Positions 22,511-27,549 of a stretch of 34,638 bases of DNA are shown in pieces. The stretch spans positions 1-34,638 of the forward strand of contig DATNQI010000063.1 in NCBI GenBank assembly GCA_036704125.1, given 5' to 3'. Below the pieces are notes generated by a model, which was not told where the DNA came from, ran no database searches, and saw nothing but the letters and a program-made list of their open reading frames with translations. Positions within the stretch are counted from its first letter, which is position 1. Each line of letters starts with the position of its first letter. The position numbers and the translations under genes are program-made. Origin of the DNA: Pantanalinema sp. GTDB taxonomy: Bacteria > Cyanobacteriota > Sericytochromatia > S15B-MN24 > UBA4093.

Positions 22511-22822
22511 CGTTCGCAACCTCCTGGCCCTATGGGCCATCCGGCGGCATCAGGTCCGAGCGGTGATGCCGCCCCTGTGCGCCGAGGTCGATGCTAGGGG
22601 GTGTTCGCCCCGGCTACAACGCGTGCTCTCGCGCTTGTGTAGGGGGCGAGCTTGGGCCTTGGAGCCGGGTGCAGCCCCCCTTCGTGCTGGGAACGGTCGA
22701 CTTGCCCTCAGCATGTTGGCCATTTTTTTGAACAAGGGCCGCTTCGCTGCGCGCGCGACGATCATGCGCCTGCTGGGTACAAAGAGGGTGCGAGCGATGG
22801 CGCTCGCCCGGAGGAGCGCGAC
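22511..22822. other. 312-bp hairpin-rich intergenic region
   Basis: Divergent region between the Tyr-rich lipoprotein and the patatin gene. It holds hairpins ggccc-tat-gggcc (22526-22538) and a 10-bp stem ggcggcatca / tgatgccgcc (22543-22552 with 22564-22573), both within the predicted leader of the minus-strand gene; a promoter for that gene (22591-22619); then on the plus side gggggc / gccccc around 22642-22679, an imperfect stem tgctggg / cctcagca (22685-22713) and a run of seven T (22723-22729 region, after ttggcca). A short RNA on the plus strand is possible; I do not recognise SRP, 6S or tmRNA. No ORF with a ribosome site seen. Confidence 0.4.
22591..22619 (-). promoter_or_regulatory. 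Promoter of the Tyr-rich lipoprotein gene
   Basis: The minus strand reads TTGTAG (22614-22619), 17-nt spacer, TAGCAT (22591-22596). This is the best -35/-10 pair I see in the window. Predicted +1 near 22584, leader about 74 nt containing two hairpins. Confidence 0.5.
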
Positions 22823-24091
22823 ATGGGCAAGGTTGGTTTGGTACTGTGCGGCGGGGTCGCCAAGGGGGCGTACGAGGCGGGCGTCCTCAAGGCCATCGCG
22901 GAGCACCAGATCTATCCCGACGCCATCGTGGGGATCTCGGCGGGGGCCATCAACGGGACCTTCGCCGCCCAGCTCATCGCCGCGGGCCAGTTCACGGGCC
23001 AGGCGGTCGAATCGGAGCTGGTCCACCACTGGCGCGAGACGGTCAACGCGCAGAACCTCTACCAGGGCTTCGGCCGGATGGACGGCGACGAGATGGAGCG
23101 CCGCAACCTGCGCACCCTCTTCAACCGCATCGGGGTCGACCCCCTGCGCCGCCAGTACCGCCCGCGCATCGGCTTCGATTCCCTCTTCGCCTTCGAGCAG
23201 CTGATCCGCGGCGACTTCGCCTCGCTCATCTCCCACCACTTCGTCCGGCAGATCATGGAGGACTACGTGCGCCTCCCGCAGGTCATCAAGCGCCCCGTCA
23301 AGCTGAGCCTGGTCGCCACCGACCTGATGGGCTCCACCTCCTTGAGCGACGCGATGGAACTCGCGGCCCGCTACTCGGTCTACGAGGACTACGTCTGGAG
23401 CAACGAGGCGAGCCACGAGGACTGGGAGGCGAACGTCCAACCTCGCCTGACCCGGATGATCGAGGCGTCGAGCTCTTTTCCCTTCCTCTTCCCCCCGACC
23501 CGCGACGCGCAGAGCGGGGCGATGCTGTTCGACGGCGGCCTGATGGACAACGCCCCCATCGGCCGCGTGATCCGCATGGACCCCGAGATCGACACGGTGC
23601 TCGTGGTCTCGGGAGTGACGGTGGTCGATCGGCCCGAGCACGAGCCCGACACCCTCTACGGGGTGCTGGGCCGGGTCTTCTCGATGCTCGCGGGTCGCTT
23701 CGTCATCCAGAACTACCGGAAGGTCCGCAAGGAGAACGACAAGCTCGAGCGCCTGCACGAGCTGCTCAAGCGCGGCAGGAACGGCAACGTCCTCCAGAAC
23801 GCCTTCAACCAGACCCTCGCCCAGGCCGCGGGTTACAAGAGCCTCGACGACCTTCTGGAGCGCCGGATCGTGCGCTTGATCCCCATCTTCCCCAAGCCCT
23901 CTTTGCCGGGAGACGTCTTCGAGGGCTTCTTCCGGCCCGAGCTCCGCGAGGCCTACATCCAGCAGGGCTATCGCGACGCCAGCGCCGCGCTCGGGCGCGA
24001 GGCCTGGGTCTCCACCGACGCGGGAGTCGCCGACATCCCCGAGGAGGCCCTCATCATGGCCCGCGCGTTCGACCACGCCTTCGATGCCTAG
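22823..24091 (+). CDS. Patatin-like phospholipase
   Basis: A 422-residue patatin-family acyl hydrolase. The start at 22823 has GAGGAG 6 nt upstream; the longer frame to 22652 lacks support. The oxyanion loop is CGGVAKGAYEAGVL (9-22), the nucleophile elbow GISAG with S39 and the second dyad residue D237 in FDGGLMDNAP. There is no signal peptide or clear membrane segment, so it is probably cytoplasmic or peripheral. The fold is longer than RssA-type proteins because of a C-terminal extension of about 150 residues (FFRPELREAYIQQGYRDAS near its end). Only 6 nt separate it from the nurA-like gene, so it is the likely first gene of the NurA-HerA operon. Confidence 0.92.
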   Translation: MGKVGLVLCGGVAKGAYEAGVLKAIAEHQIYPDAIVGISAGAINGTFAAQLIAAGQFTGQAVESELVHHWRETVNAQNLYQGFGRMDGDEMERRNLRTLFNRIGVDPLRRQYRPRIGFDSLFAFEQLIRGDFASLISHHFVRQIMEDYVRLPQVIKRPVKLSLVATDLMGSTSLSDAMELAARYSVYEDYVWSNEASHEDWEANVQPRLTRMIEASSSFPFLFPPTRDAQSGAMLFDGGLMDNAPIGRVIRMDPEIDTVLVVSGVTVVDRPEHEPDTLYGVLGRVFSMLAGRFVIQNYRKVRKENDKLERLHELLKRGRNGNVLQNAFNQTLAQAAGYKSLDDLLERRIVRLIPIFPKPSLPGDVFEGFFRPELREAYIQQGYRDASAALGREAWVSTDAGVADIPEEALIMARAFDHAFDA

Positions 24092-24097
24092 CTAGCG

Positions 24098-25255
24098 ATG
24101 CTCTACCGCGATCGCCTCTCGGCGGCGCTCGAGGCCTGCGCGAGCGCCTTCGACGCCTACGACGCCGCCCTGAGCGGGAGCCTCGACGCGCTGGGGGCAG
24201 CGCTCGACGCGCTCGGCCTCGCGCGCGCCGAGGACGTTCGCGAGGCCCTGGCAGCTTTCGAGGCTCCCGGCGCCGTGCCCACCGCGGAGTGGGACCAGGG
24301 CACGCGCATCCCCTTCGGCCAGGCATGGAGCGATCACGCCGCGGCGCGGGAATGGGCCGCCGCCACGCTCGAGGGCCGGGCGACCTTCGCCGCCGACGGC
24401 AGCCAGATCGAGCCCGACCGGCGCTTCTCGGTGCCGGTGGCCCTGGTCCAGGTGGGCTGGTTCGAGAACCTTCACTCGCGCGAGGCCCCGCACTACCGCA
24501 AGGACGTGGACGTGCGCGTGCTGGGCCCCGACGACCTGCGCGAGGACGAGGTGGGCCCCCCCAAGCGCAAGGTGGACCTCGCGCGCTTCGAGCTCGAGGT
24601 CTCGGCCCTGCGCCGCTACCTGGGGCAGCCGGGGCCCGCGGGGCGCATCGCCTACCTCGACGGCAGCCTGGTGGTCTCCTTTGCCGAGAAGCGCAAGCAG
24701 GACGCCTACGCCCAGCGCTACGTGGAGCTGGTGCGGGGGCTCTTGGCCGACGCCGAGGCCGCCCGGGTGCCGCTGGTCGCCTACGTGGACACCTCGTACG
24801 CCCACGACCTCTCGACCATGCTCGCTTGCTGGGGGGGGCTGTCGACTCACGGAGGGGTGAGCGACGCGGCCCTGCTTTCGGGGCGCCTGGGCTGGGGCGA
24901 TCGCACCCCGGGCGCCGTCTGCGCCCGCGAGGGCATCCTCGACGCCTACGGCGACTGGGCACGCCGCATCGGCTTCTGCTACCTCCAGACCAGCGCGGAC
25001 GCTCCGCCGGCGCGCCTGGAGTACCCGCTCTGGATCCAGGAGCAGGGCCTTCTGGACGAGGTGCTGGACGTGGTGCGGGCCGATGCGATCGCGGGCGGCG
25101 GCTACCCCTACACCATCGCGGCGGCGGACGCGACGGCGGTGATCAGGGCCCCGGACCGCGACGCCTTCTATCGTGCCGTCCAGGAGTTCCTCGCGGCGCG
25201 CGGCGTGTCGCTGCGCTTCTCGAAGAAGGCCCTCTCCAAGCTCCGGCGGCGCTAG
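24098..25255 (+). CDS. nurA: NurA-domain nuclease
   Basis: A 385-residue protein with the NurA nuclease fold (RNase H-like), which in archaea and some bacteria degrades DNA 5' ends together with the HerA translocase during end resection. Conserved acidic segments are visible: FAADGSQIEPD (D100), a helix with E166 (LARFELEVSALRRYL), IAYLDGSLV (D188) and YVDTSYAHDL, with Asp again near the C-terminus (YTIAAADATAVI). There is no ribosome site; the ATG sits 6 nt after the patatin stop, so translation is probably coupled. The HAS-barrel and HerA genes follow on the same strand. Gene identity rests on these motifs and on the HerA neighbour. Confidence 0.85.
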   Translation: MLYRDRLSAALEACASAFDAYDAALSGSLDALGAALDALGLARAEDVREALAAFEAPGAVPTAEWDQGTRIPFGQAWSDHAAAREWAAATLEGRATFAADGSQIEPDRRFSVPVALVQVGWFENLHSREAPHYRKDVDVRVLGPDDLREDEVGPPKRKVDLARFELEVSALRRYLGQPGPAGRIAYLDGSLVVSFAEKRKQDAYAQRYVELVRGLLADAEAARVPLVAYVDTSYAHDLSTMLACWGGLSTHGGVSDAALLSGRLGWGDRTPGAVCAREGILDAYGDWARRIGFCYLQTSADAPPARLEYPLWIQEQGLLDEVLDVVRADAIAGGGYPYTIAAADATAVIRAPDRDAFYRAVQEFLAARGVSLRFSKKALSKLRRR

Positions 25256-25282: not shown

Positions 25283-25312
25283 CTCGAGGGAGCCATGACT
25301 GGAGGGATCGCC

Positions 25313-25891
25313 TTGCGCATCGGAAAGATCGTCTCGTCGCGATCGCACCTGGACTACGTCTGCCAGATCTACCACCCGGGCGAGATCCCCGACGTGCCCT
25401 CGCCCGCCTCGTACGCCTTCGGCCGCTTCGTGCGCCTCTCGGGGGATGCGGTCGGCATCGTCTACGACTCGCAGCTCCAGAACCCCGACTTCGGCAACTT
25501 CGGCCCGCGCCTGAGCAACTCGCCCCAGGAGATCCGGGTCTTCACCCCTGACCTCATCGACGAGCAGGCGACGCTCGTGAGCCTCCTGCTGCTCGGGCGC
25601 CTGAGCGGGGCGCACGGCATCCACGAGGTGCCGGGCGAGGTGATCCCGGTCCACTCCGAGGTCGAGACCCTGCCGGACGAGGCCTTCGTGGCCTTCCACC
25701 GGGACGAGGCCGGCCGGATCCAGCTTCGCTACCTTCCTTTGGTGCAGGCCCACGGCGGGCCCGCGAGCCTCAGCCTGCTTCTGGCGGTGCTCGATCGCCT
25801 CAACTCCCTGTGCCCCGAGGATCGCGCGCGGCTCGGCGTCCTGCGCAACGCCCTCAACTGGCAGCGGACCATCCAGGCGGTGAAGGCATGA
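25313..25891 (+). CDS. HAS-barrel-like protein between NurA and HerA
   Basis: A 192-residue protein beginning LRIGKIVSSRSHLDYVCQIY, the strand pattern of the HAS-barrel found at the N-terminus of HerA ATPases. PASYAFGRFVRL then GIVYDSQLQNPDFGNFGPRLS continue the barrel. The C-terminal half is helical (LLLAVLDRLNSLCPEDRARLGVLRNAL). I prefer TTG at 25313, where GGAGGG lies 6 nt upstream; the ATG at 25295 would add 6 residues but its G-rich site is only about 3-4 nt away. Its stop overlaps the herA ATG (ATGA, 25888-25891). It probably acts as an adaptor or regulator of the HerA-NurA complex (inferred from position). Confidence 0.75.
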   Translation: MRIGKIVSSRSHLDYVCQIYHPGEIPDVPSPASYAFGRFVRLSGDAVGIVYDSQLQNPDFGNFGPRLSNSPQEIRVFTPDLIDEQATLVSLLLLGRLSGAHGIHEVPGEVIPVHSEVETLPDEAFVAFHRDEAGRIQLRYLPLVQAHGGPASLSLLLAVLDRLNSLCPEDRARLGVLRNALNWQRTIQAVKA

Positions 25892-27549
25892 GCCAGGACC
25901 TGCTCGTCGGCACCGTCAAGGGCCCGGGCGAGAGCGCCCAGGAGTACCGCTTCATCACCCCGGACAACGCGCGCACCAAGGTGGGCGAGTTCGTCTACTA
26001 CCCGATCCAGGTGGAAGGCGCCGAGCGCCTGATCCTCGGCAAGATCACCGAGAAGGCCATCGTCCGGACCCTGCCCGACGCCTTCCTGGCGGATCCCCAC
26101 ATCCCGCCGTCCGAGGTTGCCGAGCTCATCGGCTTCGACATGGCGACCCCCGAGCTGTACGAGGTGACGGTGGCGATCGCGGGCTACTTCGACCCGCGCT
26201 TCAAGGGCTTCGTCAATCCGCGCGTGATGCCGGATCCGGGCGTGCGCGTCCACCTCGCCGGCAGCGCCCTGCTGACCGAGGTCCTGAGCCCCAAGACCCA
26301 GGGCGCCTTGGGCTCGGCGCACCTCGGCTCGCTCTTGACCCGCGCCCCCGGCGAGGTGCCCGTGGTGCTGGACGTCAAGAACCTGGTCTCGACCCACCTC
26401 GCGATCCTGGCCTCCACGGGCTCGGGCAAGAGCTACACGGCGGGCGTCCTCATCGAGGAGCTGCTGCGCCCCTACAACCGCGCGGCGGTGCTCGTCATCG
26501 ACCCTCACGGGGAGTACCACACCTTTAGGGAGTTCGAGAGCCATCCTGATTTCGAGCAGGGAGGGTACCGCCCCCGGGTCCGGATCATCCCTCACGACCA
26601 GGTGAGGATCCGCTTCTCCAGCCTCACCGAGACCGACGTGCGCTCCTTGCTGCCCATGATGAGCGAGAAGATGAACGCCTTCTTGGGCAAGGCCTTCGAC
26701 CGCGTCCGGGGGCGCAAGGGGGACGGCCACCTGTGGGGGCTCCAGGACCTCTTCAACGCCCTCGACGCCATGCGCAGCGAGGGGGCCGAGGACGACCCTT
26801 CCTCCAACGCGAGTACCATCGAGGGCATTCGCTGGCGCCTCGAGGACCGCTTCGCCCGCTCGCGCATCTTCCACGACCGCGACCACCTGCCCCTGCCCGA
26901 GCTGTTCTCGCCCGGCCAGGTCACCGTCATCCAGCTCAACGAGATCGACCAGGACATGCAGCAGGTGATCGTCTCGACCCTTCTGCGGCGCATCAACCGC
27001 GCGCGGATGGACACCAAGAACGGCAAGGTCCACGACGGCGAGACCTACGTGCCCTACCCGGTCTTCGTGCTGCTGGAGGAGGCGCACCGCTTCGCGCCGG
27101 CGGGCGCCACGGTGGTCAGCACCCCCATTCTCAAGACCATCCTCGCCGAGGGGCGCAAGTTCGGAGTCGGGGTGGGCCTCATCACCCAGCGGCCCGGCAA
27201 GCTGGACAGCGATGTGCTCTCCCAGTGCATGACCCAGTTCATCATGAAGATCGTGAACCCCCTCGACCAGCAGACCATCGCAAGCTCGGTCGAGGGCGCG
27301 GGGCGCGACCTGCTCGACGAGCTGCCGGCGCTGACCAAGGGCCAGGTGGTGGTCGCGGGGGTTGCGATCAACACGCCGGTGCTGTGCCAGGTGCGCGCGC
27401 GCCTGACGAGCCACGGCGGAGAGACCATCGACGCCCCGCAGGAGTGGCTCGACTACTTCGGCGTGGGCCAGGAGGAAGCCCGGGCCCAGGACGCGGCCGT
27501 GCTGCGGCCGCAGGCCAAGGCCGAGCGCTTCCGCGGTTATTCCATCTGA
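25888..27549 (+). CDS. herA: HerA-type DNA translocase ATPase
   Basis: A 553-residue hexameric-type ATPase of the FtsK/HerA superfamily that pumps DNA to feed NurA. The N-terminal HAS-barrel (LLVGTVKGPGESAQEYRF ... VGEFVYYPIQ) is followed by the Walker A motif ASTGSGKSYTAG (K181), VIDPHGEYHTF, Walker B VFVLLEEAHRF (E397/E398) and sensor-type motif GVGLITQRPGKLDSDVLSQC, then IVNPLDQQTI and a final arginine-rich region. Length agrees with archaeal HerA (about 500-600). The ATG overlaps the HAS-barrel gene stop, with no strong ribosome site, so translation is coupled. Role: DNA end processing in recombinational repair; related pairs also serve in phage defence, which is an alternative here. Confidence 0.93.
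   Translation: MSQDLLVGTVKGPGESAQEYRFITPDNARTKVGEFVYYPIQVEGAERLILGKITEKAIVRTLPDAFLADPHIPPSEVAELIGFDMATPELYEVTVAIAGYFDPRFKGFVNPRVMPDPGVRVHLAGSALLTEVLSPKTQGALGSAHLGSLLTRAPGEVPVVLDVKNLVSTHLAILASTGSGKSYTAGVLIEELLRPYNRAAVLVIDPHGEYHTFREFESHPDFEQGGYRPRVRIIPHDQVRIRFSSLTETDVRSLLPMMSEKMNAFLGKAFDRVRGRKGDGHLWGLQDLFNALDAMRSEGAEDDPSSNASTIEGIRWRLEDRFARSRIFHDRDHLPLPELFSPGQVTVIQLNEIDQDMQQVIVSTLLRRINRARMDTKNGKVHDGETYVPYPVFVLLEEAHRFAPAGATVVSTPILKTILAEGRKFGVGVGLITQRPGKLDSDVLSQCMTQFIMKIVNPLDQQTIASSVEGAGRDLLDELPALTKGQVVVAGVAINTPVLCQVRARLTSHGGETIDAPQEWLDYFGVGQEEARAQDAAVLRPQAKAERFRGYSI

Follow-up and report, generated by a model that had tools for sequence, protein, structure and literature searches.

A predicted free-standing barrel protein encoded between the nuclease gene nurA and the ATPase gene herA, hereafter X, probably belongs to a Mre11-Rad50-NurA-HerA machine as a fifth component without a name, and hence probably an overlooked part of the apparatus that processes DNA breaks. 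HerA-NurA has been studied so far as a two-protein machine, and a protein whose occurrence follows a single HerA clade, across several bacterial phyla and onto haloarchaeal plasmids, would amount to an overlooked subunit. The assembly, loading, and strand specificity of HerA-NurA are debated. The Thermococcus pair cuts both strands, a result that its authors find hard to reconcile with end resection (PMC12977600, excerpt). In lineages that bear X, the protein offers a direct test of whether reconstructions of HerA-NurA miss a subunit. A literature search that most subscription papers lie outside found no free HAS-barrel protein accompanying HerA-NurA.

Locus and start codon

In the window, the whole 34,638-nucleotide stretch of Pantanalinema sp. 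DNA that was analyzed, X lies, as in the original prediction, between the nuclease gene nurA and the ATPase gene herA on the same strand (Table 1). The X frame closes with TGA at 25889-25891, a stop overlapped by the herA ATG at 25888. With a defined stop, this overlap, and relatives in other genomes (best E 1.8e-96 in a profile search), the reading frame is real. The window carries nurA-X-herA only; mre11 and rad50 of the same genome adjoin each other on contig C37. A patatin-like phospholipase gene (22652-24091; PF01734, 1e-21) stops just upstream of nurA, and a frame resembling it sits ahead of the X-herA locus of another cyanobacterial genome, G001 (L010:1536-2813).

Table 1. Features of the nurA-X-herA locus in window coordinates.
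Feature	Position	Strand	Basis
nurA nuclease gene	24098..25255	+	PF09376, E 6.4e-35
X, predicted free HAS-type barrel protein; 192 residues from the likelier TTG start, TGA stop	25313..25891	+	AlphaFold2 model, Foldseek, relatives, Shine-Dalgarno pairing
Alternative ATG start of X, less likely	25295..25297	+	alignment of relatives, pairing energy
Shine-Dalgarno-like GGAGGG ahead of TTG 25313	25301..25306	+	sequence, pairing energy
X residues 1-120, predicted barrel part	25313..25672	+	model secondary structure
Loop with short helix, conserved (X residues 57-84); putative contact segment	25481..25564	+	model, alignments
X residues 141-190, predicted helical tail	25733..25882	+	model
herA ATPase gene with its own predicted N-terminal barrel	25888..27549	+	PF01935, E 6.8e-45; HerA model; Foldseek

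The choice between TTG 25313 and ATG 25295, which had been flagged as needing resolution, falls in favor of TTG because of the methionines of its relatives and its stronger Shine-Dalgarno pairing. The TTG column holds methionine in five of six aligned relatives, with the sixth having its methionine one residue earlier, and the relatives recovered in a separate HerA scan (below) likewise begin at or near this position. Pairing with the anti-Shine-Dalgarno end of the 16S rRNA reaches -15.3 kcal/mol for the 20 bases upstream of TTG, compared with -7.7 kcal/mol upstream of ATG. On these sequence grounds, TTG is the likelier start and would give a protein of 192 residues; the model and the alignments were made with a reference sequence that lacks the final residue.

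Fold of X

An AlphaFold2 model built from 21 sequences (pLDDT 84.7, pTM 0.78) predicts that X is a beta-barrel followed by a helical tail. The first part of the model contains strands 2-9, 14-19, 39-42, and 46-56 and helix 71-77, and the remainder contains strands 86-98, 101-103, and 116-119, helix 122-128, and more helices between 141 and 190, with low confidence at residues 57-70 and 78-83. The model of the window's HerA (pLDDT 78.6) shows the N-terminal HAS-barrel that the original prediction had assigned to it: strands 5-13, 19-24, 35-42, and 45-58, helix 74-81, strands 91-102, 107-109, and 120-123, and helix 126-133. The order of strands and helices is identical in the two models and their spacing nearly so, bearing out the claim that X begins with a HerA-like strand pattern. 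Since the models share this order and near-equal spacing, HerA appears to keep its own barrel and X to be a second, free one.

Structure comparison with HerA barrels agrees. A Foldseek search with the X model puts 29 PDB chains at E <= 1e-3; HerA or HerA-type chains fill all of its best 50 rows, among them TdpA, which is presumably a HerA-type protein. VIA-align recovers the same HerA-type group in rows 1-25 (Z 10.6 to 7.9, 98-123 residues aligned), followed in rows 26-50 by ATP-synthase subunits, save for a HerA at row 41 (Z <= 7.7, 70-78 residues; a Z under 8 may reflect a common arrangement). ATP-synthase subunits are the other proteins behind the HAS fold name. The window's HerA model finds Thermococcus HerA as its best Foldseek match (E 2.3e-32) and lies closest to the archaeal HerA structures 9x1m and 4d2i. 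The structural match of the predicted X model to solved HAS barrels supports a HAS-type barrel fold.

At the sequence level, no relation between X and HerA barrels was found (hhalign E 0.11), nor any homology of X to a solved structure, and none of 28 X members matches the Pfam HAS-barrel family PF09378. These results could mean that the barrel assignment is wrong and the fold of X unrelated, an explanation that is scarcely credible given a confident model and structural neighbors that are first HerA-type proteins and then ATP-synthase subunits. X from the window has no family match in Pfam, NCBIfam, or PADLOC; across the 28 members there is none in PHROGs or NCBIfam, and Pfam returns four matches, each to a single member and none better than E 0.07. 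The RecA-like ATPase domain (PF01935) is absent from X, with neither a Pfam match nor such a domain in the model. X therefore shares the predicted fold and element order of the HAS-barrel of HerA and F1-ATPase but differs in being free-standing, in lacking an ATPase, and in carrying a helical tail. The notion of a duplicated barrel survives in part: the models place a second, free barrel beside that of HerA, but no sequence link supports its origin by duplication. A PF09378 match in the same genome was considered as a second free barrel and rejected, as it sits among genes that are presumably ATP-synthase-like, where an F1 barrel is expected.

Co-occurrence in Cyanobacteriota

X is found by profile search in 21 of 386 Cyanobacteriota genomes, covering 17 genera and about 11 families. 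A HerA profile matches 148 of the 386, with a sharp gap between 21 genomes below 1e-200 and the next at 1e-25. This HerA clade and X occupy the identical 21 genomes. Were genomes independent, such a match would arise by chance with a probability of about 1e-34, although the 21 are related (11 families) and the true weight is less. A NurA clade profile at E 1e-40 matches 20 genomes, all inside the X-bearing 21. X thus tracks this NurA clade and not NurA as such, because Pfam NurA occurs in 145 of the 386. Both clade profiles, that for HerA and that for NurA, derive from sequences themselves linked to or near X, and up to eight (X), three (HerA), and four (NurA) candidates were scored per genome, such that absences can be misses. 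For Mre11, TIGR00619 (SbcD) matched 15 of 15 genomes and is blind to Mre11 clades. A purpose-built profile (A8) instead detects one Mre11 clade in all 21 genomes with X and in none of 24 genomes without X, the latter hand-chosen from those listed.

Physical linkage is looser. Gene neighbors are unlinked in several of the 21 genomes, and in four of them (L011-L014) neither nurA nor herA lies within about 4 kb of X. The neighbors of X at these and the other cyanobacterial loci read are taken to be housekeeping-like genes. G001, the X-bearing genome outside the NurA clade, has X, HerA, and Mre11, and no NurA was found there. In this genome an AIM24-family gene (L010:2922-3632; PF01987, 1e-70) occupies the position of the window's nurA.

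Gene order in other bacteria and on haloarchaeal plasmids

A scan with a HerA alignment yielded 27 loci, with X near HerA in 16 and NurA in 14. Of the remaining 11 loci, which are without X nearby, ten (nine titled Acidobacteria-type, one Nitrospinota) had their genomes searched whole, and in all ten of these genomes X is encoded elsewhere, in two pieces in G404. Coming from other phyla, these genomes probe the association between X and HerA separately, in a test that could have failed. The NurA clade is present in nine of the same ten genomes; the tenth, G401, has X and no NurA match. In the genome of an eleventh X-less locus (L060) no X was found, and the sole HerA frame detected at the locus spans 155 residues.

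Thirteen loci have an SMC-like gene upstream of nurA, and the three such genes that were scanned are Rad50/SbcC-like. The order mre11-rad50-nurA-X-herA, on one strand, is present in 11 of 12 longer stretches, and the twelfth ends inside rad50; in L147 the rad50 frame is split in two pieces within this order. The 11 stretches come from two Cyanobacteriota (G176, G331) and nine MAGs titled Chloroflexi, Anaerolineae, Chloroflexia, or Rubrobacter. X is accordingly encoded together with mre11, rad50, nurA, and herA, and the earlier proposal of a third component of HerA-NurA, a putative assembly factor, needs to be widened: its tie to HerA and NurA stands on the co-occurrence in Cyanobacteriota and in other phyla, but it is incomplete, as the unit elsewhere is Mre11-Rad50-NurA-X-HerA. 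Archaeal operons of Sulfolobus and Thermococcus hold the same four partner genes, mre11-rad50-nurA-herA, whereas X is an added fifth gene here and goes unmentioned in the excerpt of that report (PMC12977600).

Relatives of X with 27-37% identity are also encoded on four haloarchaeal plasmids in a plasmid collection, where each is annotated as a hypothetical protein. Three of the four carry, in order, genes for a metallophosphoesterase, an SMC-type ATPase, NurA, X, and a HerA-like ATPase; on the fourth, X lies near the record end along with an ATP-binding protein. The X profile also has a second, weak hit at L175 (G407:C110:27821-28120; E 2.2e-4), inside an open frame of 323 residues that is perhaps another barrel protein.

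Proposed role in the Mre11-Rad50-NurA-HerA machine

The favored reading, held with moderate confidence, assigns X as an accessory subunit to a single clade of Mre11-Rad50-NurA-HerA machines, found in bacteria and on haloarchaeal plasmids, where it would dock as an adaptor between HerA and NurA. In that accessory capacity X is probably obligate. Machines with X would process double-stranded DNA ends. X would be co-produced with NurA and HerA, docking where the HerA barrel ring meets the NurA dimer, through a conserved loop and helix placed like the NurA-contacting loop and alpha1 helix of HerA. Once docked, it might help couple a six-fold pump to a two-fold nuclease, or control the movement of DNA from one to the other.

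Docking at this joint is proposed from the HAS-domain contacts in published structures and the matching segment in X. In Deinococcus radiodurans, the HerA barrel contacts NurA in a complex of 6:2 stoichiometry, and acidic residues of the HAS domain hold NurA (PMC9960219, excerpt). All HerA alpha1 helices and their preceding loops contact NurA in Thermococcus (PMC12977600, excerpt). The Deinococcus complex is a two-protein one, with a separate barrel protein unmentioned in the excerpt (PMC9960219), and, as far as these excerpts go, the solved pairs from both organisms work without X (PMC9960219; PMC12977600). The matching segment, residues 57-84 of X, has 7 of 28 positions invariant in ten diverse members ranging from the window to haloarchaea, against 13 of 163 in the rest of the protein (Fisher p 0.014, and 0.015 when columns with gaps are left out; the region was picked post hoc). 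Conservation of the loop over 28 sequences is weak, with 34 of 191 circular shifts scoring as high. Model confidence that is at its lowest in parts of residues 57-84, together with the conservation there, weak as the statistics are, fits a segment that might settle on partner binding.

G001 and G401, which have X without a NurA match, bear on how X would act. X may not need NurA, and its main contact is more plausibly with HerA because of these two genomes. The same pair argues against X being a brake that keeps NurA or HerA inactive until the full machine has assembled. Such a brake would be made with NurA and HerA, as the overlap of the herA start with the X stop suggests, and a mimic of the HerA barrel could occupy NurA; it is nonetheless a distinctly improbable role. 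Equally doubtful is the idea that X is a missing specificity subunit, a look-alike of the HerA barrel that adds another barrel layer between pump and nuclease such that one strand is trimmed and not both. Were that so, pairs studied without X would look like plain destroyers of double-stranded DNA.

The barrel might instead bind DNA, passing an end or strand from Mre11-Rad50 to HerA-NurA and not serving as a protein-protein adaptor. The five-gene order, which unites X with Mre11 and Rad50, is consistent with this, as is the helicase BrxHI of BREX, whose HAS-like barrel, a domain inside the helicase and likened to X by description, is presented as a DNA-binding module (PMC12839542, excerpt). 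HerA structures, in contrast, give the barrel as the NurA contact (PMC9960219; PMC12977600, excerpts), and DNA binding is considered an unlikely function, though less so than a brake.

Repair or defense

A similarly minor share of belief goes to the explanation that the entire module with X serves to destroy foreign DNA and not to repair breaks, which would make X a defense component. The authors of the Thermococcus study propose that HerA-NurA may destroy foreign double-stranded DNA (PMC12977600, excerpt). Gene context is divided. In the window, PADLOC matches two of the eight neighbors scanned, both weakly, and none of the others, and four of the eight belong to ordinary Pfam families (a patatin-like phospholipase, a tRNA-modification enzyme, an aldehyde dehydrogenase, and a carbon-nitrogen hydrolase; the other four have no Pfam match). 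PADLOC does not match X from the window or from Natrinema, phage records contain no match to X, and the neighbors at cyanobacterial loci, by their presumed identities, speak against defense. The module may repair in some hosts and defend in others.

The haloarchaeal plasmids offer a different setting. On a Natrinema zhouii plasmid (L185:8830-22959), TerB_N/TerB_C, BrxC/D-like, and DEAD-helicase genes, matching PADLOC SngA, SngB, and SngC, precede mre11-rad50-nurA-X-herA on the same strand, an arrangement that favors defense. SngABC is presumably the Shango defense system; these genes adjoin the X operon on this plasmid but were not seen among the eight window neighbors scanned. A DL31 plasmid (L184:15803-29791) likewise has TerB_N/TerB_C, BrxC/D-like, and DEAD-helicase genes ahead of the five-gene set on the same strand, a parallel that also points toward defense, with genes of the same lengths as in Natrinema in equivalent places, the two being likened by length and position alone.
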